A stretch of 51,809 nt of DNA from Flavobacteriales bacterium (lineage in GTDB: Bacteria; Bacteroidota; Bacteroidia; Flavobacteriales_C; GCA-002722245). Below are positions 20,852 to 46,698 of this stretch, piece by piece. Numbering within the stretch: position 1 is the stretch's first letter; each line of letters opens with the position of its first letter. The stretch spans positions 112,226 to 164,034 of the forward strand of contig JAHEZL010000004.1 in NCBI GenBank assembly GCA_023251095.1, written 5' to 3'. Under the pieces are notes generated by a model that saw only the letters and a program-made list of their open reading frames with translations, was not told where the DNA came from and ran no database searches. The position numbers and the translations under genes are program-made.

Positions 20852-20935
20852 ATGAAACAAAACCTTTTAACCGCAATTCTCGTTTTTGGGATACTATCTG
20901 TTTATGTAACCATTGTTTATCACTTGAAAAAATAG
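20852..20935 (+). CDS. Small membrane protein, 27 residues (candidate)
   Basis: An ATG at 20852 opens a frame of 27 codons ending in TAG at 20935, nine bases before the GH16 start. The product is Lys/Gln at the start, a single hydrophobic helix (LLTAILVFGILSVYVTIVY) and a positively charged end HLKK. This composition is that of a small single-pass membrane protein rather than random sequence, and the position suggests cotranscription with the glucanase genes. A leader or translational-coupling role for GH16 is another option. No homologue is known to me. Confidence 0.45.
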   Translation: MKQNLLTAILVFGILSVYVTIVYHLKK

Positions 20936-20944
20936 AGATATTAT

Positions 20945-22375
20945 ATGAAGAATAATTTACTGAGTCTTGTTTTTTTATCCGCAATTATGGCGCCCTCTGT
21001 AAGCAGGGCCCAAAGCTATCAGCTTTTCTGGTCGGATGAGTTTAACGGTACTTCACTCGATGAGAATTACTGGAACTATGAAACAGGAAATGGAGATTGG
21101 GGTTGGGGAACCGGTCAGCTGGATTATGATACTAAGCGCGACACCAATGTAAAAGTAAGTGGCGGTAACTTAATCATTCAAACCTTAACAGAAAACTATT
21201 CGGGATTTAATTATACTTCAGGCCGATTGACTACAGCTAAAAAATTATCCTTCAAACATGGAAAAGTAGAGATCAGGGCCAAAGTTCCAACAGGCAGTGG
21301 AGAAGGAGTGGCTTTTTGGATGTTGCCCACCTGGGAAAAGTTTGGCGGTTGGCCGAGAAGCGGAGAAATCGATATTCTTGAAATATGTGGGAAATCTACC
21401 ACGCAATCGCAAGGCACGATGCACTTTGGCGAAAACGGAAATGATGTAAGCAGCTATGCTATTTATAAACCAACAGGCGTAGATCTTTCAGCTGATTTCC
21501 ATGTTTACGGTGTGGAGTGGGACTCAAAAACCATTAAATGGTATGTAGATACCACAGTATATAAAACAGCCAATGTGGACGTGCCATACGGAACGCAATA
21601 TTATTTCCCCTTTTCCGAAGAGTTTTATGTTATCATCAGCGCAGGAGTTGGAGCACAGATGTGTGGCGCTCCCGACGGATCCATCTTACAATCCAAATAT
21701 GTAGTAGATTATTTTCGTGTGTATAAAACAGCAGATGAAATTGTGACTATCCCTGCAAAAATTGAAGCCGAAGCGTATACCTCTCAAGGAGGAACACAGC
21801 TGGAAACCTGCACCGATTCGGGTGGAGGGAATGATGTTGGACAAATTGGAACAGGAGATTTTTTAAGTTATAATTTGGTAGCACAACAGGCCGGAGTATA
21901 TAAAGTTACTTTCAGGGTAGCGGCAGGAACAGGTTATTCGGGTTCTATTAAAATATTGAGTGGCGCTACTCAAGTTGGTACTATCAATGTGCCAACCACC
22001 GGCGGCTGGCAAACCTGGCAGGATGTTTCAACCAACATTACCTTAAAACAAGGTGTTCAAAACATCACTTTAAATTTTACAGGTGTATTCAATATTAATT
22101 ATGTGAATTATGAATGGATAAGTACATCTGTCAATGAAGTTGCTGTTAATTCGGTAAAACTATTTCCAAATCCTTTTTCTTCCAAAATCAACATTAGTTC
22201 TGATAGTGGTGAGGGACTTTTTAGTGTTTATGATTTATCGGGAAGAGAAGTGTTGAATGATAATTTCAAAAAAGGGAATTCAATATTTTCTACAGATTGC
22301 CTGTCTCCGGGCATATATCTCATTCAAATAAAAACAAATAGTGGAGTGACACAACAAAAATTAATCAAAGAATAA
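20945..22375 (+). CDS. Secreted GH16 endo-beta-1,3-glucanase (laminarinase-like) with CBM6 and T9SS type A tag
   Basis: A 476-residue protein with a signal peptide ending at SRAQ (about residue 23). The GH16 domain covers about 27-262. The catalytic motif of the bulged laminarinase group is present: SGEIDILE with Glu141 (nucleophile), Asp143 and Glu146 (acid/base). Trp-rich substrate-cleft sequence (GDWGWGTGQLDYDT, WMLPTWEKFGGWP) fits laminarinases. A CBM6 domain follows at about 272-395 (IEAEAYTSQGGTQLE...GGWQTWQDV...INYVNYEWI), which binds beta-glucan or xylan chains. Residues 400-476 (VKLFPNPFSSKINIS...GIYLIQIKT) are a type A sorting domain. It is in an operon with the TIM-barrel enzyme 19 bases downstream. 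Endo-cleavage of laminarin-like beta-1,3-glucan outside the cell is the probable role. Confidence 0.94.
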   Translation: MKNNLLSLVFLSAIMAPSVSRAQSYQLFWSDEFNGTSLDENYWNYETGNGDWGWGTGQLDYDTKRDTNVKVSGGNLIIQTLTENYSGFNYTSGRLTTAKKLSFKHGKVEIRAKVPTGSGEGVAFWMLPTWEKFGGWPRSGEIDILEICGKSTTQSQGTMHFGENGNDVSSYAIYKPTGVDLSADFHVYGVEWDSKTIKWYVDTTVYKTANVDVPYGTQYYFPFSEEFYVIISAGVGAQMCGAPDGSILQSKYVVDYFRVYKTADEIVTIPAKIEAEAYTSQGGTQLETCTDSGGGNDVGQIGTGDFLSYNLVAQQAGVYKVTFRVAAGTGYSGSIKILSGATQVGTINVPTTGGWQTWQDVSTNITLKQGVQNITLNFTGVFNINYVNYEWISTSVNEVAVNSVKLFPNPFSSKINISSDSGEGLFSVYDLSGREVLNDNFKKGNSIFSTDCLSPGIYLIQIKTNSGVTQQKLIKE

Positions 22376-22394
22376 TTTATAATAAATAGAAGAT

Positions 22395-24209
22395 ATGGTA
22401 ATTAAAGGATTTTTGGTGGCGGTATCAATCGTATTGATTCAGGGCCTTGCTCTTGCAAAAACAACGGTTAAGAAAGAAAACGGAGGCTGGAAGTTATATG
22501 TGAACGATAAACCCTTTGAAGTAAAGGGTGTCACTTTTGGCGGCGATGTGACAAAAGAAAATGTTGGGAAATATATGAAAGACTTTAAGTTCCTTGGTGT
22601 AAATACCATCAGAACATGGGGAACCAATGACAATACTCAAATTCTTTTAGATAGCGCTGAGGCTTATGGTGTCAAAGTAATGGTTGGGATTTGGATGCGT
22701 CATGGCCGACCGGGAATGGAAGGGGACGATAGCTTTGATTATTTGAAGGATGCCAAGGGAATGGACGCTATGTATGAAGGCGCTATTGCAACTGTGAATA
22801 AATATAAAAATCATCCGGCCGTACTTTATTTTGGAGTAGGTAATGAAGTGTACTTAAACATCGCTACCAATGAAGAGAAATTAGCCTATTCTTTATTTCT
22901 TGAAAAAGTTTGCAGCAACATAAAACAGATTGATGCTGATCATCCTATAGTATCTGTTGATGCCTGGAATTTCGGATTTAAATGGTGGAAAGAATATGTT
23001 CCTTCTGTGGATATATATGGTGTGAATTCATATGGTCCGGGAGTAAAACAGATTCCGGGAGAGCTTACTAAAGCGGGTGTTGATAAGCCTTATGTGATTA
23101 CAGAATTTGGTGTGAGTGGTGAATGGGATTCAAAACTCGACAGGAACGGATATAAAATAGAACCCGATGATAAAGCAAAATACAAAGCCATTGCGCCGGG
23201 AGTTAAAGAGTGGATAACACCTAATCCATCTTGTTTGGGATCTTATGTTTTCCATTATGGTAACGACGATACCTTTGGTTCTGTGTGGTTGTTGTTTCGT
23301 TATGCCGATTACACCCGTCCGCAATACTGGGCAACCAGGGAGGCCTACACAGGAGAAAAACCTATTAATAATGTGCCTGATATTTCTGCTTTCAGCATTC
23401 CTGATACCAACGCTGTTCAAACGGGAAGCTGGGTAAAAGTTAAGCTGGATGCGTCGGATATAGAAAATGATCAGTTGGATATCAGCTTTCATTACAACCA
23501 GCGCTCAGGAAGTAGGGCACGAAAAGATCAAATCAATCCTCTTGTGTTTAAAGGTAATTTAAAAGAGGGCTATCAAATCAAAGTTCCGGAAGAAAATGGT
23601 GCCATAAAAATTTACGCTTTCGTTAAGGATACCTACAAGAATATTGGCATTGCCCAAACTTCTATCATGATAAAAAACAAAGGCTTTCACAGTGATTTCC
23701 TTCCGGGGGCGCGCACAGCTCTTCCTTTTTATGTGTACAACGATTCTTATAAAATGCCATATTCTCCAACAGCCTACATGGGTAATTTTGCAGAAATGAA
23801 AGTGGATGCGGCAAATAAAGAACAGGTTCATGGAGGCAAGGAATCATTGAAAATTACTTATGAAGGATCCGACAATTGGTTTGGCTTAGGATTGGTTGAT
23901 CCTCCGAACGATTGGGGTACACGTCCCGGTGGCTATAGCGTAAAAGGCGCAAAGACATTTACTTTTTGGGCAAAAGCAAGTTTAGATAATGTGGATGCAA
24001 CTTTTGGATTCGGAATGATAGGCGATGACAAAACGTATTACGATACCGATAAGCAATCTATTAAAATATCTTTGACTTCCACCTGGACAAAATATGAAAT
24101 TGAACTGGAGGATGCCGACTTGCGTTGCATTCGCTCAGGATTTACCATTTATTCGGGTGGTATTGGTCAGCCGTTTTCAATTTGGGTGGATGATGTTCAG
24201 TTTAAATAA
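22395..24209 (+). CDS. Periplasmic TIM-barrel glycoside hydrolase (GH2 barrel-like) with C-terminal jelly-roll domain
   Basis: A 604-residue protein with a signal peptide ending at LALA (residue 21). The barrel (about 30-330) starts with the GH2/GH5-clan pattern LYVNDKPFEVKGVTFGG...LGVNTIRTWG. The acid/base is Glu151 in FGVGNEVYL and the nucleophile Glu237 in VITEFGVSG; spacing fits clan GH-A. The middle (about 340-430) is an Ig-like domain (PDTNAVQTGSWVKVKLDASD). The end (about 440-604) is a CBM4/11-like beta-sandwich (NWFGLGLVDPPNDWG...FSIWVDDVQF). Unlike its neighbours it has no T9SS tag, so it probably stays in the periplasm and trims oligosaccharides made by GH16. The exact GH family cannot be settled without a profile search. 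Confidence 0.87.
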   Translation: MVIKGFLVAVSIVLIQGLALAKTTVKKENGGWKLYVNDKPFEVKGVTFGGDVTKENVGKYMKDFKFLGVNTIRTWGTNDNTQILLDSAEAYGVKVMVGIWMRHGRPGMEGDDSFDYLKDAKGMDAMYEGAIATVNKYKNHPAVLYFGVGNEVYLNIATNEEKLAYSLFLEKVCSNIKQIDADHPIVSVDAWNFGFKWWKEYVPSVDIYGVNSYGPGVKQIPGELTKAGVDKPYVITEFGVSGEWDSKLDRNGYKIEPDDKAKYKAIAPGVKEWITPNPSCLGSYVFHYGNDDTFGSVWLLFRYADYTRPQYWATREAYTGEKPINNVPDISAFSIPDTNAVQTGSWVKVKLDASDIENDQLDISFHYNQRSGSRARKDQINPLVFKGNLKEGYQIKVPEENGAIKIYAFVKDTYKNIGIAQTSIMIKNKGFHSDFLPGARTALPFYVYNDSYKMPYSPTAYMGNFAEMKVDAANKEQVHGGKESLKITYEGSDNWFGLGLVDPPNDWGTRPGGYSVKGAKTFTFWAKASLDNVDATFGFGMIGDDKTYYDTDKQSIKISLTSTWTKYEIELEDADLRCIRSGFTIYSGGIGQPFSIWVDDVQFK

Positions 24210-24224
24210 TAGAGACGAGTGTAA

Positions 24225-24294
24225 TTTCAGATTTTCAATCTGAAATCCATTTAAATGCATTTTTAATGCCTATTTAATTGCGATTGAAAATCGC
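24225..24294 (+). terminator. Tandem hairpins after the GH16 operon
   Basis: TTTCAGATT-TTC-AATCTGAAA (24225-24245) and GCGATT-GAA-AATCGC (24280-24294, followed by TTTAAGTTTTG) lie just past the stop of the last gene in the operon. The second has the better terminator form. Confidence 0.5.
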
Positions 24295-24304
24295 TTTAAG
24301 TTTT

Positions 24305-24633
24305 GTTTCAGATTGAAAATCATTACTGTTCGGAACATATTGAACTTCACACCCAGTAAGTCCTTGCGAAAATTTTGTACTCAAAATTGAAGTAATTTCT
24401 TTTTTTTAGTTTAGGTGTTGTCGTCACATTCGCTCCGCGCTCACGGCTTCGCCGGCGCGGAATTTATTTGTGTAGAGGCTTCGCCTCGTATTTCATTATT
24501 AATTAACGAAGCAAAGCTTCTTTGAAAAAAGATTCCGCGCCGGCGTAGCCGTGAGCGCGGAGCAAGCCCCTTGCTGAGTGGGCGTTTCAAGTCTTTATAA
24601 GGTTCCGAACAGTAATGATTAAAAATCTGAAAC
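24305..24633. repeat. Nested palindromic element (mobile-element-like) in a 516-bp gap
   Basis: This fills most of the gene-free stretch 24210-24725. Outer arms 24305-24336 and 24602-24633 are inverted repeats matching at 29 of 32 positions. Inside, GC-rich arms 24432-24463 and 24532-24563 match at 31 of 32. The central loop holds two small hairpins, GAGGC-TTC-GCCTC (24475-24487) and GAAGC-AAA-GCTTC (24508-24520). Between outer and inner left arms, 24346-24398 is a diverged copy of the 8459 palindrome arm. The GC-rich arms contrast with the A+T-rich surroundings. No protein is encoded, so it is a MITE, a REP/BIME-type cluster or a stack of insertions. Confidence 0.8.
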
Positions 24634-24643
24634 TACATATAGT

Positions 24644-24671
24644 GTAGAGACGCAAAATTTTGCGTCTCTAC
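24644..24671. repeat. Perfect 28-bp palindrome
   Basis: GTAGAGACGCAAAA and its exact reverse complement abut at 24644-24671. It directly adjoins the terminator of the minus-strand gene at 24726. GTAGAGACGCAAAATTTTGCGTCTCTAC-like sequences recur in other bacterial genomes (from memory). Confidence 0.85.
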
Positions 24672-24701
24672 AAAAAAAAGGCGCACTTTAAAAAGCGCGC
24701 C
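24672..24701 (-). terminator. Intrinsic terminator of the 24726-26306 gene
   Basis: On the minus strand GGCGCGC-N8-GTGCGCC is followed by eight T (the A run at 24672-24679). It starts about 25 bases after the stop codon. Confidence 0.85.
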
Positions 24702-24725
24702 TTCATTCACTATTGATTTTATAAA

Positions 24726-26306
24726 TTATCTCTTCAATATTTTTTCACAGCTTATGCCATCCATTGTTTGTATTTGTACAACATACAAACCTGAGGTTAA
24801 TGTTTCTGTTGAAATAGAATTATTTCCACGATTTAATTGTCCGTTAATGACTTCTTTACCTGCTAAATCATAAATTTTAAAAGTGCTTCTGTCTGCTTCG
24901 GATTGAAGGTTGATGAATTCATTAAACGGATTTGGAAAAATATTTACTCTTGCCAAATTCTCTTCATTTACAGCTGTGAGCGCATCAGGCACTAATTCAA
25001 TGTCATCAAAATAATAAGTGCTCATATCATTTGTTCCTGCATTTATGGTGATGAGTAATTTGTCGTATTTACTAGATAGTGCTTTGCTGAAATCAAAAGT
25101 AAGTATGGTCCATTTTCCGGTATCTGCAGCTGCAATTGTGGCTGTAACCTGATAAAATATGGTGTTGTTGTTGAAGTCTTCTAAACGAATAACCACAGGC
25201 GCAATTTTATGAGAATAAACTTTCATGCGGAAAACCTTGTTCACTGAAAAATCGACTTTAGAACTTAACTGAGTAGAAGAAATCCCTTCCCATGTGTTGA
25301 ATCCTTTTGTTAATTGTCCTACTTTCAAACTGGTATTGAGTCCGCCATTTTTAGGATTGGTTATTTCATAAAACTGACTTTCATAAAATCCTTTGAAGGT
25401 TAAATCCACTACATCATAATCAGCAAATAAAACTCCTTCTTTATCCGATACCAATAAATTATTAGTGATGGAGGTAGTAGTATTTGAATTGCCGTCTGTA
25501 GCAACTATTTTATAGTAAATAGCTGTTCCGTTGCTTTGTCCGGGAATAGTAGCCGAATAAATATTACCACTGGCCGACATGCTAAGCGTGTTGTTTAAAC
25601 TGGTAGGTGAAGTCCCCCATTTTAATGTAGCGCCTGTTACTGCAAGATCATCGGTAATGGTAGCCAAAATAGTGATGGCTTCATTTGTTTTTGGACTCAA
25701 AGTGCTTGAAGTAATTTCTTTGATGGAAGGGGCAGAAACCCCAACATAATAAGGAACCATGGTAAAATCATCAAAGTAAAAAACATGTACCGCAGTAGCT
25801 CCGTCATCAAAATAAAGAATGATTTTATTGTAGGTATTGTTGGCGGTACCCGTGAAATCAAACACCAGATTTTGCCAGGTGTTGATCTGACTCACGGGAA
25901 CCGTTACTTTTTTAGTGATGCTGCTGTTTTTCCAATCTTGTAATTCTACCGATACATTGCAGGCAATGGGAGAATATACTTTAAGGTTCAATACAGAATA
26001 GAGAGAGAAATTTAATTTTTGCGGTACTGAATCCTTGATCACAATTCCCGACCAGGTTTCTTGGCCCCTCACGCACATTCCAACTTTATTGCTCACATCA
26101 ATTCCTGTTTTGTAGGGATTGTTCATTACATAAAATTCATCGTTTCCAAATCCGTTGAAATTTAAAACGGTATTGTCATAGTCGGCTAAAACAACCGAAC
26201 TTTGTGCGTGTGCATTTGCAGAAAAAAGGCTGATGCAAAAAACACCAAATGCTTTGATTAATAAATTTTGATTGGCTTTCATAGTTGTATTTATTTTATA
26301 CAACAA
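24726..26306 (-). CDS. Secreted two-module CBM-like protein with T9SS type A tag
   Basis: A 526-residue protein. The signal peptide (MLYKINTTMKANQNLLIKAFGVF...AHAQ) ends near residue 35; an internal ATG (MKANQNLL, residue 9) could be the real start. Two homologous beta-sandwich modules lie at about 36-190 (VVLADYDNTVLNFNGF...FYFDDFTMVP) and about 290-442 (VLFADYDVVDLTFKGF...YYFDDIELVP). An Ig-like domain sits between them (PSIKEITSSTLSPKTNEAITILATITDD). The last 75 residues are a type A sorting domain (VNIFPNPFNEFINLQS...GLYVVQIQT). There is no catalytic domain, so a surface glycan-binding role is inferred. It could be a functional stand-in for a SusE/F-type binding protein. A GTAC repeat lies 29 bases upstream. 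Confidence 0.85.
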   Translation of the reverse strand: MLYKINTTMKANQNLLIKAFGVFCISLFSANAHAQSSVVLADYDNTVLNFNGFGNDEFYVMNNPYKTGIDVSNKVGMCVRGQETWSGIVIKDSVPQKLNFSLYSVLNLKVYSPIACNVSVELQDWKNSSITKKVTVPVSQINTWQNLVFDFTGTANNTYNKIILYFDDGATAVHVFYFDDFTMVPYYVGVSAPSIKEITSSTLSPKTNEAITILATITDDLAVTGATLKWGTSPTSLNNTLSMSASGNIYSATIPGQSNGTAIYYKIVATDGNSNTTTSITNNLLVSDKEGVLFADYDVVDLTFKGFYESQFYEITNPKNGGLNTSLKVGQLTKGFNTWEGISSTQLSSKVDFSVNKVFRMKVYSHKIAPVVIRLEDFNNNTIFYQVTATIAAADTGKWTILTFDFSKALSSKYDKLLITINAGTNDMSTYYFDDIELVPDALTAVNEENLARVNIFPNPFNEFINLQSEADRSTFKIYDLAGKEVINGQLNRGNNSISTETLTSGLYVVQIQTMDGISCEKILKR

Positions 26307-26334
26307 ATCTACTTTCTCAGCTATTGGAAGTGGG

Positions 26335-26347
26335 GTACGTTTGTACA
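26335..26347 (-). promoter_or_regulatory. GTAC repeat upstream of the CBM-like gene
   Basis: GTACGTTTGTACA lies 29-41 bases upstream of the gene at 26306, reading TGTAC-AAA-CGTAC on the coding strand. It belongs to the GTACAA motif set seen at 20761, 36182 and 40432. Confidence 0.35.
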
Positions 26348-26376
26348 GAAATGCCGCAATATTATTCAGTTAATTG

Positions 26377-28833
26377 TTATTTGATTACAGTAATGTGTCC
26401 GTAATTTTTGTAGTTCAGAATAGTCACACTTGATTTTATTGGGTTTACAGCGAGTTTCCAAACATAAATATCAATCTGTACGGGATTTCCCCTATAAGTG
26501 CCATCCCATCCTTTTTCCATATCATAACTTTCAAAAAGTAATTCGCCCCAGCGGTTAAAAATCATGAGATGATAATCTGTGAGATACAATCCTTTCACAT
26601 AAAATAAATCGTTCACTCCATCTTCATTCGGGGTAAAAGCGGTTGGTACATAAATGCTGGTGATGCATTTTTCTTCTACCTTCATTTTGTCGCTAATGGA
26701 ACAGCTTTTACCATTGGTGAGTGTCAGTGAATAATTTCCTTCTGCGCTGATAACACGTGATGAGGTACTGTCGCCATTTTCCCATAAATAATGCTGAGCT
26801 CCGTTTCCTGTATTGATGGTGAAGGAAGGCGCTTCAATAAAGCAAACTGTAGTATCGGCAAGCGGAGCAGAAGAAGGCATAGGAATTACAGTGGTTAGCA
26901 CAGTGTCATAAGCTTTACATTGTGAGTCATAAAAAGCTTCAAGGGTGATGGTGTCACTGGTACTTATATCAATCGCCGTTTTTATGTTTTCTCCGGTCGA
27001 CCATAGTAATTTCACTCCGCTTAGTTTGGAATCAATTGTAATGGGGGCTCCTCCGCAAATTTCAATATCGGGCCCTAAATCGAAAAAAGGAGTAGGGTTG
27101 CTGTTGATATTAACCTCATCATAACCCGGACAGTTATTGGTATCAGTAATATTGACAAAATATTTTCCTGAGATGCTTACAGCGATAGAAGCACTTGTTG
27201 CTCCAGTGTTCCAGAGGTAAGAGGCTGCTATTTTATTTGAAATTACTTTCAGTAAACTTCCTTCGCACATTGTTGTGTCGGGACCTAAATTCACAAGCGG
27301 CAAGGCATTTACAGTAAGCATTGCAGTATCTCTTTTTTTACACCCCTTGGCATTACTTACTTCTACCCAGTAATTCCCTGTGGAGGAAGCAGTAAGGGTT
27401 TGTAAAATACTGTTGTCGTTCCAGAGGTAAGAGTTGAAAATTCCTGCATCAAACGTTAGGGTTTGTCCCTGACAAATATTTGTGTCGGCAAGAGAGATGA
27501 GTGGCAAGGAATTTACAGAAAGTACAACGGTATCTTTTCCAACACAGCCACCTGGCATGGTTACTTCCACAATATAAGTACCGGCCGCATCTTTAGAAAT
27601 ACTTTGTGTTTGTTCTCCCGAATTCCAAAGGTAGTTTGCCGCTCCGCTGATATTGGAATCGAAGGTAAGTGCTGCATCACCGGCACAAATTTCTTTATCG
27701 GGCCCGAGTGAAACCGTAAAGCTGTTACTTATATTAATGATTACAGTGTCTTTTGCATTGCAGTTATTGCTCGTTACGGTAACGATGTAGGTTCCTGAAT
27801 CAGATTTTGTAATGGTTTGTGAAGTTTCGGAAGAGGACCACAGATAAGTACTGCCTGGATTTTCGGCATCAAAAGTAATGGCCGGACCATTTGCGCAAAT
27901 AGTTTTATCCGGGCCTAAATTCACGATAGGTTTAGGATTTACATTGATCATCACTGTGTCTTTCCATTTGTCCTGACATTTATTGGTAATGTTTACAATA
28001 TACTGAGTGGATACGGTAGGTGTGAAGGTTGGAGTAGCAGAAGTAGAGTCGCTAATGTTTGTTGTTGGTGACCATTCATAAACAACATCTCCGCTTAGAT
28101 CCACCTGAAAATTATCTCCATCGCAAATCGTTGTAGTGATTTTTTTAGTGTTGATGAAATGGAAGTCGCGTACACTTTGTTCGTTTATTGACCCGCCTGT
28201 TGCGGCTGTAAATCCATAATACACGTTTGGATTTCCTCCAAAAATAGTAGCAATGATATCGCCGGAATAAGAGAGGCGTAAATTGCAATCGAAATATACC
28301 TCAATTGTTTTTGTTGTCGCATTCCATATTACCCGGGAACTATGCCATTGTCCGTCTTCAATATCTGTAGCAGCGGCAGTAGCGGAGATGGGGCCTGCCA
28401 GTTTGTTGGCAGTATTGTGATCCACATCCCCGTTTTTTTCAATGGCAATATGGTCAAATGCAGGATCAAAACCATTTTGGTAAGTATCATATTCCACAAT
28501 TACAGAAGGACTAATACCGCCCGATCCGAGTCCGAGTCCGGGTGCGCCTGCATTGGTGCTTACCGGTTGAAGCGTAAACGCAATTCCATCGGCACCATCG
28601 TCATGATTCCCTAAATACACTTCGAAAAAAATATCAAATGAAGAGGTGAGATCAATTTTAGTGGTATTCCAAACACTACCGTTTTGCCAATTTGCATTTT
28701 GAGTGAGCTGATAGGTTCTTACACCTGTTTGCACGGCATTCCCTACTAACGTGTATTGTGCATACAAGGAAGAGCTTGTCAGCGCAAGAAATAAAATCAA
28801 CATTGTTATGCTGATTCTCTTTGTATTAACCAT
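26377..28833 (-). CDS. L-type lectin adhesin with seven Ig-like domains and T9SS type B (CHU_C) tag
   Basis: The start is set at the ATG at 28833 (MVNTKRISITMLILF, 818 residues), because the upstream in-frame ATG at 28875 would put 14 residues before a proper signal peptide that ends at LYAQ. The lectin domain shows GADGIAFTLQP, IVEYDTYQN, NGDVDHNTAN and YFDCNLRL (residues about 27-240). About seven Ig/PKD-like domains with paired cysteines follow. The end (TSIYVPTAFTPNEDGVNDLFYVKG...NRWGELLFES...GHITVIK) is a CHU_C domain. It is on the same strand as the two other adhesins in this segment, but 146 bases separate it from the next gene upstream, with a hairpin between. Surface attachment to glucan is inferred. 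Confidence 0.92.
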   Translation of the reverse strand: MVNTKRISITMLILFLALTSSSLYAQYTLVGNAVQTGVRTYQLTQNANWQNGSVWNTTKIDLTSSFDIFFEVYLGNHDDGADGIAFTLQPVSTNAGAPGLGLGSGGISPSVIVEYDTYQNGFDPAFDHIAIEKNGDVDHNTANKLAGPISATAAATDIEDGQWHSSRVIWNATTKTIEVYFDCNLRLSYSGDIIATIFGGNPNVYYGFTAATGGSINEQSVRDFHFINTKKITTTICDGDNFQVDLSGDVVYEWSPTTNISDSTSATPTFTPTVSTQYIVNITNKCQDKWKDTVMINVNPKPIVNLGPDKTICANGPAITFDAENPGSTYLWSSSETSQTITKSDSGTYIVTVTSNNCNAKDTVIINISNSFTVSLGPDKEICAGDAALTFDSNISGAANYLWNSGEQTQSISKDAAGTYIVEVTMPGGCVGKDTVVLSVNSLPLISLADTNICQGQTLTFDAGIFNSYLWNDNSILQTLTASSTGNYWVEVSNAKGCKKRDTAMLTVNALPLVNLGPDTTMCEGSLLKVISNKIAASYLWNTGATSASIAVSISGKYFVNITDTNNCPGYDEVNINSNPTPFFDLGPDIEICGGAPITIDSKLSGVKLLWSTGENIKTAIDISTSDTITLEAFYDSQCKAYDTVLTTVIPMPSSAPLADTTVCFIEAPSFTINTGNGAQHYLWENGDSTSSRVISAEGNYSLTLTNGKSCSISDKMKVEEKCITSIYVPTAFTPNEDGVNDLFYVKGLYLTDYHLMIFNRWGELLFESYDMEKGWDGTYRGNPVQIDIYVWKLAVNPIKSSVTILNYKNYGHITVIK

Positions 28834-28953
28834 GAATCGAAAAAAATGTACCCTGATTTGAATATTGAAATTCAAATAGTAGATTGTAGTTATCTACGCA
28901 TTAACGCATGAATAGTTTTAGAAAATGTGGAGGGCTTTAATTCCTAAGGAAAT

Positions 28954-28977
28954 TGTCTGAATCAAGGTTCAGACAAA
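28954..28977 (-). terminator. Hairpin after the large lectin gene
   Basis: TTGTCTGAA-TCAAGG-TTCAGACAA forms a perfect 9-bp stem three bases past the stop of the 28980-34007 gene. The core ATCAAGGTTCAGAC is repeated at 40367-40380 downstream of HTCS-2, and GGTTCAGACAA is at 34308-34318 beside another lectin gene stop. Confidence 0.6.
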
Positions 28978-34107: not shown

Positions 34108-34318
34108 GATTTGTTGTATTGAATAAAAGTGTCGGTTAAATTGATTTTAAGTCCGATTAATAAGGGAATTGGGGGATGTAGTAAAGAAAGTTTTTATTGC
34201 CGACTCGTATAAAAAACGGCGTAAAAACGCTTCAGTCGCAATTCTAAAACGGGTGTAATTAAATGAATTAGGTGTTTGGTAGTATTGAAATACGATGAAG
34301 TACTTATGGTTCAGACAA

Positions 34319-35995: not shown

Positions 35996-36181
35996 AGTTA
36001 CAAAAGTGTTACCCGAAACGAAATTAAGCTTCTCTTCAATGGCCGGTAATATAATATCATACGTAAAGCATATAATATCATTCTTAAAAAGAGCACCTAA
36101 CTTATTTGTTTTTAGTACTATAACTTTATTTATGGAAATTGGTTTCAAAACCAATTTTTACGATCGCTATCAAATACATTA

Positions 36182-39300: not shown

Positions 39301-40311
39301 GATCTTCCCCATATTTTCGAGCGTTTTTATAAAGCCGAAAATCAGGAAGCCAACGCTGAAGGAACAGGCATCGGTCTTGCCTTTGTAAAAGAACTGGTGG
39401 AACTACACAACGGAAAAATTGAAGTGGAAAGTAAAGTGGGGGAGGGTGCTTCTTTCCATATTTATTTACCAATTACAGGAGAAAATGTTGTTGAAAACAG
39501 TGTGCTGCCAGCAAATAAGCTTGTTGCTCCTGAACAGGAAAGTGGTAAAATAAAAATCCTGATCATTGAAGACAATCCCGAAGTACGCTCGTTTTTAAAA
39601 AATGAGTTAGAGAAACTGGATTATCTTATTGAAGAAGCTCAAAACGGAAAAGTTGGCTTGGAAAAAGCTTTTCAAATTCTTCCCGACATGATCATCTCCG
39701 ATGTGATGATGCCTGAAATGGATGGTACGGAAGTTTGCAAACAGTTGAAAACCGATATCCGTACCAGTCATATTCCGGTGATTTTACTCACCGCAAAATC
39801 ATCCACCGAAAACCAGTTGAAAGGTTTTGAAACCGGTGCCGATGCTTATGTTACCAAACCTTACAACTTAAGTGTTCTTCAGTTGCAAATCAAAAATATT
39901 TTAAGCTTTAGGGAAAAACTCCGCAAGAAAGTGTCTGTTGATACTATGATTGACGCTAAGGAAATTACTGTAACCAATGCCGATGAAGCGCTGATGGAAA
40001 AAGCCATGCAGATTATTGAAAAAAATATTGCCGATACCGAATTCAGTGTCAATAAATTTGCCGCTGAAATCGGAATCGGACGAACCTTGTTTTATGCTAA
40101 AATCAAAAACATTACCGGACAAACAGTGAATGAATTCATTCAAACCATCCGATTAAAACATGCCGCCCGTATGCTGCTTAAAAGTGATGATACCATTGCT
40201 GAAATTGCTTATTCGGTTGGGTTCAATACTCCTAATTACTTTAGTAAATGTTTTAAAGATGCTTATGGTGTGCATCCTTCGCAGTATAGGGAGGAGAATA
40301 AGAAAGTCTGA
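36325..40311 (+). CDS. Hybrid two-component system sensor/regulator (HTCS-2)
   Basis: A 1328-residue paralogue of HTCS-1 with the same order of parts: signal peptide (MIQRVLCIFYLLLIAFAKAYA), propeller sensor (about 22-690), Y_Y_Y domain, one membrane span at about 784-798, HisKA with His839 (NVSHEFKTPL), HATPase (NLLSNAFKF, DNGSGIEEKDLPHIF, GTGIGLAFV), receiver with Asp1126 (SDVMMPEMDG) and AraC-type HTH (ADTEFSVNKFAAEIGIGRTLFY...AEIAYSVGFNTPNYFSKCF). The AraC domain is almost the same as in HTCS-1, so both may bind similar DNA sites, while sensor blades differ more. It precedes the GH81-GH128 operon on the same strand and diverges from a lectin gene. Sensing of a beta-1,3-glucan product is inferred from context. 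Confidence 0.96.
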   Translation: MIQRVLCIFYLLLIAFAKAYALPDNFRFVHININNGLSNSSVNCFYQDHLGFIWIGTENGLNKYDGRNFQVFRHDRNPSSISNDKINCVFEDSRHFILAGTNQGISILDRSTNSFKNLILNAPVNVIFEDAQKNIWFGTDHGELHLLDPVSFKSTLFLNNEANVHLSSNAINSIAEDNNGNLLIARGGTGLNIFSVAQRKFTQYYKKETNDLSDNYIQSLFFDKKKNVLWIGTKRGLDKFDVSKKIFKNYKNTEYDLQHLYSIAMNKDGNLWIGTESNGVFVFDPAKESFKSIKSNSLNVNSLSNNQIRNLYIDNEGNIWIGCYRVGINLLTNTKNFSFYQYTQGEKQTLNNKTVLSVIEDRNKNLWIGTEGGGLNFLNRKTGAFTYYKQGGNNSLSDNTVQSLYEDKEGKIWIGTYSGGISILNPHTNKFTYFKDPDSVMFRGSNDIRAITGDENGNVWIASNGNGISKFTINGKRIANYRTDWQNRNRTLVTNWIRSIYIDKKNMVWVGTVTGITIFDPSKEDYKNINKDGEEDLTVYSFCEDGDGNMWVGTTLGLKKYNPESHSFKTFTIADGLPDNIINGILKDDNNNLWISTNNGLCAFNYKTEKAVNFDLADGLPDNNFIISSFFKGAKGQMYFGSNDGLLYFSPNKIKTSTFIPPITLTDFRVYNKSVKIGDMDSLLKRDISATKEIILNYDQSFFAFEYAAPNYANPKKNQYRYKLIDFDKEWVYNGSSNIASYTDIAPGTYTFVVNNSVENGIWNPYPVSIRVIVLPPFWLTGWAYFCYFLIIVLSLYFSRQFIINREKLKNDLKLEKMKSEKAEEMNSMKLNFFTNVSHEFKTPLTLIMGPIEQLRKKGNTEEEKEAYYELIHNNSQRLLNLINEVLDLNKMDSGKLQIHKEKSDVVHFIRNIATSFHYVSEQKKIHLKISAQQEPLYFVFDPEKLEKILVNLLSNAFKFTKEYGLIEVSIKKENDCVVISVKDNGSGIEEKDLPHIFERFYKAENQEANAEGTGIGLAFVKELVELHNGKIEVESKVGEGASFHIYLPITGENVVENSVLPANKLVAPEQESGKIKILIIEDNPEVRSFLKNELEKLDYLIEEAQNGKVGLEKAFQILPDMIISDVMMPEMDGTEVCKQLKTDIRTSHIPVILLTAKSSTENQLKGFETGADAYVTKPYNLSVLQLQIKNILSFREKLRKKVSVDTMIDAKEITVTNADEALMEKAMQIIEKNIADTEFSVNKFAAEIGIGRTLFYAKIKNITGQTVNEFIQTIRLKHAARMLLKSDDTIAEIAYSVGFNTPNYFSKCFKDAYGVHPSQYREENKKV

Positions 40312-40380
40312 ACCTTGATTAAAGGATGAAAGTATGGGTAGTCAAGATAATCTTTTAATCAAGTGAATCAAGGTTCAGAC
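40306..40380 (+). terminator. Long nested stem after HTCS-2
   Basis: GTCTGAACCTTGATT (40306-40320, including the stop codon) pairs perfectly with 40366-40380, and GATTAAAGGAT (40317-40327) pairs with ATCTTTTAATC (40350-40360) with one mismatch. No clear T run follows, so it may protect or attenuate the transcript rather than end it. Its right arm repeats the hairpin core found at 28954-28977. Confidence 0.5.
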
Positions 40381-40424: not shown

Positions 40425-40431
40425 CACTGTT

Positions 40432-40460: not shown

Positions 40461-40543
40461 ACAATATCACATTAGCGCGGTATTCAAATAGCTTAGAAGG
40501 AACAGCATACTTAAAATGTATGCAAACCTCTAAAACTTGAAAT

Positions 40544-43500
40544 ATGAAAAAACACTTTCTCAAAACATTTTTATTTGCAGCATTTATAATGTTATATGCA
40601 ATACAGGGTATTGTTGCACAAACCAATGTTCCTATAGTTCCTGTAGGAAAAGGTTCCTACGGAAATGGAACTCCCTTTGATCTTGTGAAAAACACCTGGG
40701 GCTCCAATGGCAACTGGGCAGTGTGGGATCAGCTGATGGCCATACACGGCAAGTGGCCGGCGAAATGGAAAGTGGGTGTGGCTGATACCAATACGCGTAT
40801 GATACCAACCAATGATGAATGGACGAGTATGATCTTCCAGCAAAATGGTAATTGGGGTGGAATGATATGGAACTCTCCAACCAATCTTGAATTGAAGCCC
40901 AGCGGATCTACCGTGTGGTTTCCCAATTCATGGACGGCCAATGGTTCTTCAATGAACACCGGTTATGGTGTTGAAGTGGAACCAACAGGAAGCACCATGG
41001 TGGCCAATAAATGTACGGTGAAGGATTGGTCGGATTGGCTAACACAATCGGAAATCACCGATGGTGCCAATAAAATGCAGGTGACCTTTGGACATGGATT
41101 CCCTTTTGTTTGGTTTGAACCTAATTTTGATCCCACCCTTCATATATGGGATGCGCCTTTTACAACGGATGGTGTGACGCCAATTACTACCTGGCCATTT
41201 ACCGGGGATCATTTTGTGGGAATGGCTTCAGGAAAAATGTTTGCCATTTTCATGCCGCCCAATACTACGGTGACAAAAGCAGCGGGTAATAAATTCAAAT
41301 TATCTTTTTCGGGACCCGATAAATATTTTGTTATTGGTTTATTAAATAAAGCTTCGGATCTGGATACCTTATATAAGTATGCTTATGTAAAACCTTTAAA
41401 CACTCAAGTGAAATGGGATTACAATCAATCACAAGCAAAAGTAAATACCACTTGGACGGTTAAAACCGTGAATTTAAAAGGTGCTGCCGAAACAAATGTT
41501 TTGCAGGGATTTATTCCTCACCATTATCAACGTGCCTTATCTACTCCGGTGTTTAACGGGATGACTTATTTAACGCCAAAAGGTACTTTGAAACTGGTAG
41601 CAGGAAAATCGTTTATTTTCTCTCATCGCTTCTCCGGAATTTTGCCCAATGTGCCGGTTCCTAAATACAATAAAAATGATAAGTATCCTTATGATTCTAC
41701 TTACATGGCGAGTACCATCACTGCGGCTAATGCGCGTACCGCTATGGGTACCGATATTTACTGGGGATTAAAACCTTTGCTGCAACAAGCGAAATATGCG
41801 GCCATCGCTGCCGAAACAAAACATCCTTTAGCCGGTGCACTAAAAGATAAAGTTAGAGCTGCATTTAAAGATTGGCTCACTTACACGCCGGGTGAAACTG
41901 CACATTGTTTTTACAGATATGATGAAAGCAGTCATTTGGGCGCCTTGGTAGGTTTTGATCCGGGAGGATATTCGGCAACTTTTACCGATCATGATATGTG
42001 TTACGGTTACATGATGTATGCTGCTGCAACGTATGCGATGAAAGATTCTACTTTCTTAAAAGATTTCGGAGGCATGTTGAAGTTAATGGCGAAGCACATC
42101 GACAACTGGGACCGTAGCGACAATAGTTTTCCTTTTTTGCGTTTGCTCGATCCATGGAACGGTCACAGCTGGGCGGGTGGTAACAGCGGAGCGGATGTGG
42201 AGTCGGTTTCCGAGTGTATGCAATTTGCATCGGGAATGTTTTTACTCGGTGAAATGATGGGCGACAATGCCATGCGTGATGCTGGTGCTTTTATTTATTC
42301 TACCATGTCGCGCGCTTATGATCAATACATCAGAGACGTCGACAACATCAATTTTTCTCCGAATTTTTCTTTAGGTGTTGCCGCTAAAATAAACAACAGC
42401 GGACCCTCTTTAGGAAATTATGTTGGCGGCGAAGGTTTGTACTGGATCAACTGGATTCCTTATGCTCCGGGAATGGACTTTTTGTATTCGGATACCACTG
42501 CCGCAAAAAATAAATTCAATCGCTTCATGACGGATTATGGTGCCAACATCAATGGTTGGGGAAGTGATTTTTTTAATAATCTAACACAATACGTTCAGGG
42601 TTTTGATAGAAATAAAGCTTTGCAAATGTGGCAGGATTACAACGTGCATTATCAGGGAAGTGATTTGAATGGGATCACTTATTATTACCTGCATTCGGCA
42701 GCTACACTGGGAAGTATTGATTGGAGTCGCTGGACTTCTTCTCCTACCAGTCAGGTTTATTACAATGATGTAACAAAGGTTTATACTTATGTTGCTTACA
42801 ATCCAACAGGGGTTGAACAAACCATAACAGCATATAATCAAGGTACACCCATCGGAGCTTTTAAAGTTCCACCATACACCACTATTGCAACTCATCTTGA
42901 TGCAATTTTGACTTCCATTAAAATTAACGGACCGGCAGATGTTGTGAAGCCTTCTGATCAAATGCAATTGAGTGTTGCAGGATTGGATCAGTATGGTGCT
43001 ACTATGAATTTAGTGTCTGCTGTTTCATGGAAAGTATTGTATGGAACAGGTACAATTGATAACAGTGGTTTGTACAGCGCACCTAATACAAATACTGATA
43101 GTGTTGTGATTCAGGCCAGCAGCGGAAATTTGAAAGCCACTTATAAATTGCGTGTTAATGATTTACGAAGATCGGTGAAACTAATCATCTTGCCTGATTA
43201 TCAGAAAGTGGTTCAGGGTTCGGTGATTTATTATGATGTAAAAGTGTATGATCAGTACGGAGGATTGTTGTCAACAAAAGGTACTACCTGGAAAACCACC
43301 GGTGGCGGTACAATGACAAGCGATGGTACTTTTATTTCTGATAATACCGTTGGTACATTTACCATTACTGCAACTTTAGGAGATTTATCATACAATGCAA
43401 TTGCTGTTGTTTATGCTCCGCTAAATCTTACGGATAATATTGCGCTCAACCGACCGTCTTTTACGGATAATTATGTCACTACCAACACTGCTCCGAAAGC

Positions 43501-44368
43501 CAATGATGGCAACACCACTACGCGTTGGGAAACCAAACAAAAAGCACAGGATGGAGATGCGCAACACTGGTGGTATGTGAAATTGGATACGGTGTATGAT
43601 TTGTCGCAAGTGGTGATTGTATGGGATGGAGCAGCAGCAGCGGTTTATGCTATTCAAACTTCTGCTGATGGTGTGAAATGGAAAACAGTGGATTCTACTT
43701 CAACCGGTGTGTGGGGTGCTACAGATAAATTTGATTTGTTTACAAAAAATGTAAGCACTCAGTATTTGCGCGTGTGGTGTTATGTGCGTGCTACCGATTA
43801 TGGATATTCTATAAAAGAATTTCAGGCTTATGGAACAAAATCGGTAACGCCTAAACCTTTGTCGAAAATCATTGTTAATCCGGGAGTGATCGATGTGAAA
43901 ATCGGACAAACATTTTCCTTCACTGCACTGGGATATAATCCCGATGGTAAATCGGTGGCCGCTCCCGGTACCTGGTCGGTAACAGGTGGTGGAACAATAA
44001 ATTTGTCAGGAGTTTTTACTGCGCAATCAGCAGGAACTTATACTGTGAAATTTCAAAGCGGATCGGTAATAGGAACGGCTACGGTAAATGTAGTGGCGGA
44101 TTATATGACTTTAGTAAACAGTCCGATAGTTAATTCCGAAGCTTTTGTTTTTTATCCTAATCCGGCCAATGATTATATCACCATCAATTCTAATTCAGCT
44201 ACAGCAACTGATTTATCAATACTGGATGTTTCAGGAAAAGTGATTTTGAGAGAAGTGATTCAACCCGGCGTAAATACAGTAAATGTAGAGCTTTTGTCTT
44301 CGGGCTTTTATTTTCTGCATCTTCAAATTAACAATACTATACTGTGCAATAAACTAATCAAACAATAA
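40544..44368 (+). CDS. Secreted GH81 endo-beta-1,3-glucanase with discoidin-like module and T9SS type A tag
   Basis: A 1274-residue protein with a signal peptide ending at IVAQ (residue 26). The GH81 domain covers about 28-770. The family's key acids are in place: Asp482 in FTDHDMCYGYM (general acid) and Glu553/Glu557 in DPWNGHSWAGGNSG...ESVSE (general base region). This family inverts and cuts beta-1,3-glucan internally, including insoluble curdlan and fungal wall glucan. Beyond it are two or three bacterial Ig-like domains (about 800-960 and 1110-1190) and an F5/8 type C (discoidin) module at about 965-1105 (ALNRPSFTDNY...WWYVKLDTVYDLSQVVIVWDG). The last 75 residues (VFYPNPANDYITINS...GFYFLHLQI) are the T9SS type A domain. 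An operon with GH128 is likely (26-base gap). Confidence 0.94.
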   Translation: MKKHFLKTFLFAAFIMLYAIQGIVAQTNVPIVPVGKGSYGNGTPFDLVKNTWGSNGNWAVWDQLMAIHGKWPAKWKVGVADTNTRMIPTNDEWTSMIFQQNGNWGGMIWNSPTNLELKPSGSTVWFPNSWTANGSSMNTGYGVEVEPTGSTMVANKCTVKDWSDWLTQSEITDGANKMQVTFGHGFPFVWFEPNFDPTLHIWDAPFTTDGVTPITTWPFTGDHFVGMASGKMFAIFMPPNTTVTKAAGNKFKLSFSGPDKYFVIGLLNKASDLDTLYKYAYVKPLNTQVKWDYNQSQAKVNTTWTVKTVNLKGAAETNVLQGFIPHHYQRALSTPVFNGMTYLTPKGTLKLVAGKSFIFSHRFSGILPNVPVPKYNKNDKYPYDSTYMASTITAANARTAMGTDIYWGLKPLLQQAKYAAIAAETKHPLAGALKDKVRAAFKDWLTYTPGETAHCFYRYDESSHLGALVGFDPGGYSATFTDHDMCYGYMMYAAATYAMKDSTFLKDFGGMLKLMAKHIDNWDRSDNSFPFLRLLDPWNGHSWAGGNSGADVESVSECMQFASGMFLLGEMMGDNAMRDAGAFIYSTMSRAYDQYIRDVDNINFSPNFSLGVAAKINNSGPSLGNYVGGEGLYWINWIPYAPGMDFLYSDTTAAKNKFNRFMTDYGANINGWGSDFFNNLTQYVQGFDRNKALQMWQDYNVHYQGSDLNGITYYYLHSAATLGSIDWSRWTSSPTSQVYYNDVTKVYTYVAYNPTGVEQTITAYNQGTPIGAFKVPPYTTIATHLDAILTSIKINGPADVVKPSDQMQLSVAGLDQYGATMNLVSAVSWKVLYGTGTIDNSGLYSAPNTNTDSVVIQASSGNLKATYKLRVNDLRRSVKLIILPDYQKVVQGSVIYYDVKVYDQYGGLLSTKGTTWKTTGGGTMTSDGTFISDNTVGTFTITATLGDLSYNAIAVVYAPLNLTDNIALNRPSFTDNYVTTNTAPKANDGNTTTRWETKQKAQDGDAQHWWYVKLDTVYDLSQVVIVWDGAAAAVYAIQTSADGVKWKTVDSTSTGVWGATDKFDLFTKNVSTQYLRVWCYVRATDYGYSIKEFQAYGTKSVTPKPLSKIIVNPGVIDVKIGQTFSFTALGYNPDGKSVAAPGTWSVTGGGTINLSGVFTAQSAGTYTVKFQSGSVIGTATVNVVADYMTLVNSPIVNSEAFVFYPNPANDYITINSNSATATDLSILDVSGKVILREVIQPGVNTVNVELLSSGFYFLHLQINNTILCNKLIKQ

Positions 44369-44394
44369 AAACTGTCATTAAAAAAACATACACT

Positions 44395-46698
44395 ATGAAA
44401 AAAGTATTGAAGCATATTCACCTGTTATTTTTATGTTTTTATGCCTTAAGCAGCCAGGCTCAGGTAAGTCCCAAAAGAGGACTTGCATATGGCAATAACT
44501 CACAGGCGGATATTAATGTCCTTAAGCCCGGGATCTCCTGGTGGTACAATTGGTCGGATACTCCCGATCCTCTTGTAAAAGATGTTTATGCAAATTTAGG
44601 TGTAGAGTTTGTTCCAATGGCCTGGAATGGAAACATTACGGCCGCCGATTTTATCGCTAAAGTCAAGCCCGGTGCAAAGTATTTATTGGCTTTTAATGAG
44701 CCTAACCTGACTGTTGAAGCTAATATGACCCCGGAACAAGCTGTTGCCGCCTGGCCTAAAATAGAACAGATTGCCGCAGCGAAAAATCTCGAAATCGTTA
44801 GTGCTGCAGCTATTTATGCTGGTGGCGGAGCTGTAGGTGGTTATACCGATCCGGTAAAATGGCACCAACAGTTTTTTAAACTTTGCCCAACATGTAAAGT
44901 AGATTACATCGCTTTTCACACCTACGAAGGGACTGCTGGTGGGGCCATTGCGCTTACCCAGAATTTAACTCAGTTTAATCGCCCGGTATGGATTACCGAA
45001 TTTGCTGATTATAATGCAAGCAGCGATGCAGAAGAAAAGGCCTACCTTCAGGATGTGGTTACTTCTTTCGAAAACAATCCTGATGTCTTCAGGTATGCAT
45101 GGTTTACAGGAAGACGGACTGACGCCCCAAGAATTAATATTTTAGGTACCAGCGGTGTTTTAACAGATTTGGGCAAAACCTATATCGGAGCTTCTTATAC
45201 CAGCAAAAAAATCAACATGCCTGGTAGAATTGTTGCCAATAAACATTATCGTAGAAAAGGTACGGGACTTGAAAATACTACCGATGGTGGTACTGTTCAA
45301 AATGTATGTTATATTGATGCCGGTGACTGGGCGGAATATATGTTGAATGTGAGTACTGCCGGTGCCCATACCTTGAAATTCAGGGTTGCTGCTGCGACTA
45401 CTGCCGGTAAATTTGATATTCAGGTGAATGGTGTTACTGTGAAAACCGATGTTGCATTTGCGGCTACAGGTGGTTGGCAAACATGGGTGGATGTGCCTAT
45501 AACAGGAGTCAATCTTCCTCAAGGTGAGGTATATCTTAAGATCATTTATAAAACGAAAGAGTTTAACTTCAATTATATTGATGTTAGCTATGAATCTGGA
45601 TTAAAAGCTAACCCTGATTTCTCTGCAAGCAAAATTTCAACCTGTGCGGGTAACAGCATTGTGTTTACCGATCTTACAACCTACAAAGTGGGAGGCGAAA
45701 CATATGCCTGGGACTTTGGTTCAGGAGCTAGTCCTGTAACAGCTATTGGTGCCGGACCACATACTGTAAGTTATTCAACCGGTGGAACAAAGTCGCCTCA
45801 ACTTACGGTAACCAATACCAATGGAACTAATTCTATTGTTAAAACAAACTACATTACCATTTCTGCTCTATCAACAGGTTGTTTATTCTCCGACGATTTT
45901 AATGATAACACTGTAAAATGGCTCAGTCAGGGCCCGTTCAGTTATACTGAAGGTGGATCTGCTACTACTGTTTCAAATGCCGGGTATGGCGAATGGGAAA
46001 ACTTTACCTACAAATTAAACAATGGAACACAGGAGTCTCCTCTTAATTTTGCCTGTTCATCAAATTTACCATTGCTTAAGGTTAAAGCCAGAGCTTCGCT
46101 GGCCGGAAAATGTGTGCTTGCTGCTACTCTTGTTGATGCCAATGGAAGAGCGATAGATAACGTTGGTGCTGTTAACTTTGAATTGACAACTGCATACCAG
46201 GTATTCCAGGTGAATTTTGCCGGCAAGTTCAAAAATATTTATAGTCCTACGAACTCAGGCAATGTAGATAGTACTAATGTTGCAGGGATTCAATTTTCAA
46301 TAAACCCCGGTTATGCTTCTGCTTATCCTGTGGTAGGTACTTCCGGCACTAAATACAATGCGATGTATACAGGTACTCTGGATATTGATTGGGTAAGCGT
46401 TGGAAATAATTGTAACCCAATTCTTACAGGTATAGATAATCTTAACGCTGATGCTGTATTGTATGAGTTATATCCGAATCCGTTCAACAACACTGCAGTA
46501 TTTAAAGTAAATGCTGAAAAAAACGAAAAGGTTTCGATTAAAATTATCGACTCTAAAGGCTTAACTGCATATTCGTCTGATAGCTTTTACACGAATAGCG
46601 ATATTGTAATTGGTGAGGAACTTCAAAATGGTATGTATACTGTATTAATGAATTATGGAGATGTGGTAAAAACCTTTAAAGTGGTTAAAATAAAATAG
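44395..46698 (+). CDS. Secreted GH128 beta-1,3-glucanase with CBM6, PKD and novel module, T9SS type A tag
   Basis: A 767-residue protein with a signal peptide ending at SQAQ (about residue 23). The catalytic domain (about 26-250) matches GH128/Asl1-like glucanases: KRGLAYGN, SWWYNWSD, acid/base Glu102 in LLAFNEPN, AFHTYEG, nucleophile Glu202 in VWITEFADY. A CBM6 (about 270-400, GDWAEYMLNVSTAGAHTLKFRVAA...GGWQTWVDV) and a PKD domain (about 402-490, TYAWDFGSGASPV) follow. Residues about 495-680 are an unnamed module also found in the 46778-47659 protein. The end (YELYPNPFNNTAVFKVN...GMYTVLMNYGD) is a type A sorting domain. It should act with GH81 on the surface, cutting the same beta-1,3-linked chains. 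Confidence 0.92.
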   Translation: MKKVLKHIHLLFLCFYALSSQAQVSPKRGLAYGNNSQADINVLKPGISWWYNWSDTPDPLVKDVYANLGVEFVPMAWNGNITAADFIAKVKPGAKYLLAFNEPNLTVEANMTPEQAVAAWPKIEQIAAAKNLEIVSAAAIYAGGGAVGGYTDPVKWHQQFFKLCPTCKVDYIAFHTYEGTAGGAIALTQNLTQFNRPVWITEFADYNASSDAEEKAYLQDVVTSFENNPDVFRYAWFTGRRTDAPRINILGTSGVLTDLGKTYIGASYTSKKINMPGRIVANKHYRRKGTGLENTTDGGTVQNVCYIDAGDWAEYMLNVSTAGAHTLKFRVAAATTAGKFDIQVNGVTVKTDVAFAATGGWQTWVDVPITGVNLPQGEVYLKIIYKTKEFNFNYIDVSYESGLKANPDFSASKISTCAGNSIVFTDLTTYKVGGETYAWDFGSGASPVTAIGAGPHTVSYSTGGTKSPQLTVTNTNGTNSIVKTNYITISALSTGCLFSDDFNDNTVKWLSQGPFSYTEGGSATTVSNAGYGEWENFTYKLNNGTQESPLNFACSSNLPLLKVKARASLAGKCVLAATLVDANGRAIDNVGAVNFELTTAYQVFQVNFAGKFKNIYSPTNSGNVDSTNVAGIQFSINPGYASAYPVVGTSGTKYNAMYTGTLDIDWVSVGNNCNPILTGIDNLNADAVLYELYPNPFNNTAVFKVNAEKNEKVSIKIIDSKGLTAYSSDSFYTNSDIVIGEELQNGMYTVLMNYGDVVKTFKVVKIK

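Follow-up and report, generated by a model that had tools for sequence, protein, structure and literature searches.

Predicted beta-1,3-glucan degradation by T9SS-exported enzymes and a candidate OMPA/OMPB uptake module in a Flavobacteriales lineage lacking SusC/SusD

A lake bacterium of the order Flavobacteriales (assembly GCA_023251095.1; genome G000) possesses an island of enzymes from beta-1,3-glucanase families, most of them tagged for the type IX secretion system (T9SS). Beta-1,3-glucan is a polymer of fungal or algal walls and also a storage sugar. The island lies in a stretch of 51,809 nucleotides of contig JAHEZL010000004.1 (positions 112,226–164,034), which was analysed as a whole and is referred to here as the window. 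We consider it likely that the window encodes the secreted arm of a beta-1,3-glucan system whose uptake step is served by an OMPA/OMPB module located elsewhere in the genome, in a lineage free of the SusC/SusD pair (SusCD). The beta-1,3-glucan system is a new version of a known, barely explored kind of polysaccharide utilization locus (PUL).

The genome comprises 3.59 Mb in 43 contigs and is rated 100% complete by the estimating tool. The right edge of the window is the end of its contig, and genome-wide searches spanned all assembled contigs. The PPK protein of G000 has its best match, 91% identical, in a metagenome-assembled genome (MAG) from Lake Pavin, followed by other Flavobacteriales MAGs.

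Enzymes and regulators of the island

Families were called by Pfam, NCBIfam and PDB sequence searches. The enzymes and hybrid two-component system (HTCS) regulators, in window coordinates, are as follows.

4238–7036, minus strand: GH2 enzyme bearing a T9SS type A tail; among curated models, beta-glucuronidase LacZ4 comes closest, with a score below its cut-off
16619–20656, minus strand: HTCS1, with Reg_prop sensor, Y_Y_Y, HisKA, HATPase, response regulator and AraC-type HTH domains
20945–22375, plus strand: laminarinase-type GH16 with CBM6 and T9SS type A tail; predicted to be surface-exposed or secreted
22395–24209, plus strand: enzyme of the GH158 endo-beta-1,3-glucanase family that has a signal peptide but lacks a T9SS tail; predicted location in the periplasm
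36325–40311, plus strand: HTCS2, a paralogue of HTCS1, upstream of GH81-GH128
40544–44368, plus strand: GH81 (endo-beta-1,3-glucanase family) with F5/8 (CBM32-like) domain and T9SS type A tail
44395–46698, plus strand: GH128 (Glyco_hydro_cc) with CBM6, PKD and T9SS type A tail

Pfam and PDB matches of the GH16, GH81 and GH128 proteins span their catalytic domains. The catalytic motif EIDILE is visible in the GH16 alignment, the GH81 protein matches 6fop (E=1e-50), and the GH128 protein matches 8j3x (E=2.7e-65) and 6uax (E=9.5e-62); residues 964–1097 of the GH81 protein additionally match solved discoidin domains of glucanase/chitosanase. As expected of T9SS cargo, the tagged proteins end in tails matching TIGR04183 or TIGR04131/CHU_C, and the T9SS component SprA is encoded in the genome. 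Another GH16 gene with a T9SS-like end lies directly left of the window (G000:C27:111669–112097), and G000 has ten GH16 genes.

The enzyme at 22395–24209 is, as judged from sequence, a member of the endo-beta-1,3-glucanase family GH158. Its clan GH-A barrel matches 9oro (E=1.2e-36) and 6pal (E=8.5e-20), and the GNE and TEFG stretches with both catalytic glutamates align to these structures; a GH158 query scanned against a collection of genome contigs gave no match. Alone among the glucanases of the island, it has no T9SS tail; it also lacks a lipobox, and its relatives in other genomes likewise have signal peptides only. It carries an extra C-terminal domain (residues 426–604), for which single-sequence structure prediction was unusable (pLDDT 36).

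HTCS1 and HTCS2 each combine a propeller sensor, Y_Y_Y, HisKA, HATPase, receiver and AraC HTH in a single protein, with identities of 74.5% in the sensor, 85.5% in the receiver and 83% in the HTH. HTCS1 is divergent from GH16-GH158. GH158 begins 19 bases after GH16, and GH128 begins 26 bases after GH81; these gaps fit two operons, each adjoining one HTCS. The HTCS/GH16/GH158 arrangement recurs in relative G004, where the GH158 orthologue (75%) lies within it. The G004 locus matching the window also has a GH2, and the window GH2 probably belongs to the island's degradation set.

These results agree with the sequence-only reading of the window, which had proposed a T9SS-based beta-1,3-glucan island without SusCD, comprising GH16, GH81, GH128 and clan GH-A enzymes, CBM-like proteins and two HTCS regulators placed beside the enzymes. 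All of these components were recovered: the clan GH-A enzyme is the GH158, CBM6 (GH16, GH128) and CBM32-like F5/8 (GH81) domains are present, and HTCS1 sits just outside the island start that had been placed at 20852. The division between T9SS-tagged extracellular enzymes and a 22395–24209 enzyme with only a signal peptide also held.

Uptake in a lineage without SusC/SusD

In Bacteroidota, polysaccharide use is usually recognized by the SusC/SusD pair, and searching for this pair is the common way to predict PULs. The window contains no SusC-type TonB-dependent transporter (TIGR04056) and no other transporter gene. Throughout the 43 contigs of G000, the SusD families PF07980, PF14322 and PF12771 gave zero matches, and the SusC model TIGR04056 gave partial weak matches only (best E=3e-13), none over the cut-off. 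SusD-like_3 is missing from all ten genomes of the window's family (G000 and nine others) and from 44 of 60 relatives overall; the SusD search found its positive control in Bacteroides. The earlier statement that no SusC/SusD occurs in the 52 kb is thus borne out, and the nearby pair that would have spoken against it was sought genome-wide and not found. Its treatment of this lack as a hallmark of the island had to be dropped, because SusD is missing from the whole genome and family. Being genome-wide, the absence is therefore no mark of the island, yet it sharpens the question of uptake.

Uptake by a divergent or unassembled SusC/SusD-type pair that escaped these searches, with OMPA as a plug-less relative of TonB receptors, appears very unlikely. 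In its favor, the genome is in 43 contigs with the window at a contig end, and the model of CHU_1276, an outer-membrane protein of Cytophaga hutchinsonii, resembles TonB-dependent receptors (PMC12016534). Against it stand the three SusD families unmatched in a genome rated complete and the same absence of SusD-like_3 in nine family members, with the Bacteroides control detected.

We hypothesize instead that the importer is the OMPA/OMPB module. G000 encodes paralogous operons of this kind on contigs C3 and C2 (loci L124 and L125, respectively), consisting of a 195-aa protein, a laminarinase-type GH16 lipoprotein, OMPA, OMPB, LIPO1 and GH3; a third module, of GH9 type, lies on C30. The three OMPA genes occupy C2:28534–30477, C3:19107–21050 and C30:6184–8382. 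In other genera GH158 lies inside the OMPA/OMPB operon. Remoter relatives of the window GH158 occur in G006–G010, where genes were called as simple open reading frames, as in all relatives. The operon of G006–G009 reads OMPA-OMPB-LIPO1-lipo2-GH3-T9SS protein-GH16 lipoprotein-GH158, and in G010 the GH158 relative adjoins OMPA-OMPB-LIPO1-lipo2. OMPA has about 650 aa, OMPB about 575 aa, LIPO1 about 335 aa and lipo2 about 387 aa, the last two being lipoproteins; GH3 is a lipoprotein in some genera.

An OMPB profile had matches in 48 of 395 genomes of the class (30 of 197 genera), and OMPA was also found in four genomes from other classes of the phylum. Of 60 loci, 57 could be assessed, and in every one of these OMPA and OMPB are neighbors on the same strand, with a median gap of 1 base; LIPO1 directly follows OMPB in 52 loci. 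Within six genes lie GH158 (36 loci), lipo2 (34), GH3 (33) and GH16 (24). Of the 39 loci that lie outside the window's family, 32 include GH158, and contig ends interrupt most of the others. No OMPB relatives were found in viral contigs and plasmids.

By a home-made measure, the density of alternating strands per 100 aa is 2.30 in OMPA and 2.86 in OMPB, compared with 2.32 in SusC barrels, 1.86 in GH16 and 1.1 in GH3 and GH158. A C-terminal phenylalanine occurs in 47 of 51 OMPA and 50 of 59 OMPB sequences. Both features are consistent with OMPA and OMPB being outer-membrane beta-barrels. The one PDB match of OMPA/OMPB, to a mammalian domain (E=0.0014), covered 59 residues and was dismissed.

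Several indirect links, read from the sequences, suggest a connection between the window and these modules. The 195–205 aa proteins beside the C2 and C3 modules are homologous to the extra domain at the C-terminus of the window GH158 (phmmer; hhalign 98%), and through them this domain is weakly related to the N-terminal half of lipo2 (hhalign 87%). The T9SS-tagged protein at 46778–47659 has a 50% identical paralogue beside the C2 module, near which a GH81-CHU_C gene also adjoins the module. A glucuronate operon (uxaC, uxuA, mannonate oxidoreductase, KDPG aldolase, KDG kinase, MFS, LacI) adjoins the C3 module in G000 (L124 803–6067) and, at 58–77% identity, HTCS-GH16-GH158 in G004 (L116 666–7091, contig C23).

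The last link, together with the GH2, hints at a glucuronic-acid-bearing glucan in the window's genus. The stronger proposal, that such a beta-glucan is the substrate and that the GH2 and the glucuronate operon are integral to the system, is in our view unlikely. The window GH2 (4238–7036) and the G004 GH2 (L115 17177–18979) do score best on beta-glucuronidase models, and uxaC/uxuA/KDPG-aldolase operons adjoin both the C3 module and the G004 arrangement. However, these scores fall below curated cut-offs, GH2 specificity is not readable from sequence alone, and the uronate operon was not seen beside the GH158 modules of other genera.

Another explanation is stand-alone scavenging, in which the T9SS enzymes yield glucose or very short sugars that enter through ordinary porins, OMPA/OMPB being unrelated. 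The window without a transporter gene and the T9SS tails of its enzymes fit this explanation, and co-regulation of the window with C2/C3 is something that we infer. It is nevertheless improbable: the predicted periplasmic GH158 depends on oligosaccharides brought in from outside, the genes for its relatives accompany OMPA/OMPB in the great majority of loci outside the family, and the C2 and C3 operons themselves hold laminarinase-type GH16 and GH3.

Under the OMPA/OMPB reading, HTCS1 and HTCS2 would detect fragments of the glucan and activate GH16-GH158 and GH81-GH128. The T9SS-exported GH16-CBM6, GH81-CBM32-like and GH128-CBM6 proteins, whose families and tails are evident, would cut the polymer outside the cell. 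As the conservation of the operon suggests, the surface GH16 lipoprotein, LIPO1 and lipo2-like proteins may hold the chains, and OMPA/OMPB of C2 and C3 may admit oligosaccharides in place of SusC/SusD. Breakdown would be finished by GH158 and GH3, both predicted periplasmic. The sequence-only reading had suggested that solid beta-1,3-glucan is gripped and dissolved by a route other than the usual PUL. The lack of SusCD upholds the part about the route, whereas the island alone is probably not that route, the likely importer being the OMPA/OMPB/lipoprotein module on other contigs.

Such a system would work in the same stages as the canonical Sus-type PUL, from cleavage at the surface through capture and passage across the outer membrane to completion in the periplasm, although it has neither SusC nor SusD. 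Beta-1,3-glucan PULs of Bacteroides reportedly combine SusCD with GH16, GH3, GH158 and surface glycan-binding lipoproteins. G000 has the same enzyme families and surface glycan-binding lipoproteins, but SusC/SusD is absent, OMPA/OMPB stands in the operon instead, and the surface enzymes carry T9SS tails. In Maribacter, laminarin genes are also scattered and include an extracellular GH16-type laminarinase and a periplasmic GH3, as in G000; there SusC/D transporters are induced (PMC11345257), whereas the G000 lineage has none.

Lectins, other proteins and repeats of the window

The remaining features of the window include four lectins and two T9SS-tagged proteins.

10410–12515, minus strand: L-type lectin with CHU_C tail, the fourth lectin, a paralogue of the other three
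24726–26306, minus strand: T9SS type A-tagged protein that belongs to no catalytic or known family; by eye, its two halves look alike and beta-rich
26377–28875, minus strand: adhesin-like L-type lectin with CHU_C (type B) tail
28980–34007, minus strand: adhesin-like L-type lectin with Ig-like repeats of 213 nt and CHU_C (type B) tail
34319–36154, minus strand: adhesin-like L-type lectin with CHU_C (type B) tail
46778–47659, minus strand: small T9SS-tagged protein, whose paralogue beside the C2 OMPA/OMPB module is described above

The tail of 34319–36154 scores just below the TIGR04131 cut-off and above that of Pfam CHU_C. Lectin adhesins had been proposed to grip the glucan. The lectins and their CHU_C tails are present, but gripping of glucan is not specifically supported: the 11 L-type lectin domains of G000 are spread over at least six contigs, and the window holds only four of them. 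This genome-wide expansion therefore provides no tie to glucan.

The protein at 12693–16460 is T9SS-tagged and contains five repeats of the PATR (autotransporter passenger-associated) family. It is unusual for this autotransporter-type repeat to be joined to a type IX tail. A Fic/DOC-family protein (SoFic-like) and a RhuM-family gene lie at the contig end (49679–51715). Nested inverted repeats (24230–24633; arms of 58 and 32 nt) separate GH158 from the next T9SS gene, and a MITE-like inverted repeat with 57-nt arms (93%) occupies 8459–8591.

The motif TCTGAAC[ACG][AT]T[AGT]A, found upstream of several island genes and the C3 module, scored 56 compared with at most 37 in shuffled sequences. It was rejected as an HTCS operator because it is a palindromic repeat located mostly just 3′ of stop codons. 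The palindromic repeat around TGTCTGAACCTTGATTCAGACA has 7 copies in 181 kb of G000, all intergenic and mostly just after stop codons (window 12579–12590, 16603–16614, 28962–28973, 34304–34315, 40307–40318 and 40368–40379; L124 10482–10493), and looks like a REP-type element. Another palindrome, GTTCAAACTTGAACA, precedes GH81; it was likewise rejected, being no commoner than chance.

Substrate versions of the module and the Cytophaga hutchinsonii cluster

Paralogous OMPA/OMPB modules carry other enzymes. GH9 is found on C30 of G000 and elsewhere, once together with GH3 and GH5-CBM6-T9A. Modules with GH18 and glucosamine-6-phosphate-isomerase-like (NagB-like) genes, probably a chitin version, occur in L166 5635–15732 (G002:C44), on which Pfam was run, and in L168–L171, judged by their similar layout. 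At L163 2144–8635 (G003:C107), the module adjoins GH97 and a T9SS-tagged GH13 alpha-amylase. This is a starch-type locus, with the Sus enzyme families and OMPA/OMPB in the SusC/SusD position within the stretch. In a tree of OMPA and OMPB, the GH9 modules and the GH18 modules each form a coherent group (support 1.0), and the starch-type module lies next to the GH9 group.

The closest described counterpart is chu_1276–1280 of C. hutchinsonii, an "atypical PUL" without SusCD that is needed for cellulose use. In it, a pair of neighboring outer-membrane protein genes is accompanied by genes for a hypothetical protein, a glycan-binding protein of two domains and an endoglucanase; the cluster is reported from three cellulolytic Cytophagales species and is regulated by an extracytoplasmic function (ECF) sigma factor (PMC12016534). 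The GH9 module on C30 matches it in gene order, in the absence of SusC/SusD and in the aromatic residues of the binding protein. The 380-aa protein of C30 has Y89, F92, F180, Y255, F258 and F349 at positions equivalent to W89, F92, F180, Y253, F256 and F343 of the 375-aa CHU_1279 (PMC12016534); positions were compared here, as given in the published text, rather than aligned sequences. The window-linked modules differ in having GH16/GH158/GH3 instead of an endoglucanase, and their lipo2 is only a profile-level relative of the SGBP-B-like binding protein (90%). Furthermore, the window has HTCS regulators, the beta-1,3-glucan system of G000 is dispersed over several contigs, and OMPA/OMPB modules are spread far wider taxonomically than three Cytophagales species. 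From these comparisons, we regard the OMPA-OMPB-lipoprotein module as most probably a beta-1,3-glucan version of the importer type represented by chu_1276–1280. No description of the beta-1,3-glucan, chitin-type or starch-type versions was found in the searchable literature, with most subscription papers falling outside the search.

Several points weigh against this account of the window and its importer. Pfam and NCBIfam gave nothing informative for OMPA, OMPB and LIPO1, and the PDB yielded no credible match; for this reason we only infer their role in transport. The count of GH158-linked loci may be inflated, as the first OMPB profile was seeded from such loci. In the window's own genus GH158 has left the module operon, and no operator common to the window and the C2/C3 modules was found. 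Finally, kinship with chu_1276–1280 is suggested by gene order and residue positions, not direct sequence comparison.

We lean slightly towards a broader hypothesis, in which OMPA-OMPB-LIPO1 serves Bacteroidota as a general glycan importer independent of SusCD, with subfamilies for beta-1,3-glucan (GH158/GH16/GH3), cellulose (GH9), chitin (GH18 and NagB-like) and starch (GH13 and GH97), and with the C. hutchinsonii cluster as one branch. If true, it serves whole lineages that lack SusCD. A conserved SusCD-free module of about 30 genera, accompanied by beta-1,3-glucan enzymes, would imply that PULs exist in many genomes counted as PUL-less. It would also give the puzzling C. hutchinsonii cellulose cluster a place in a broad family and allow alternative uptake to be tested in many organisms with soluble substrates, laminarin among them. 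The finding points to a second, widespread route of polysaccharide consumption in Bacteroidota.

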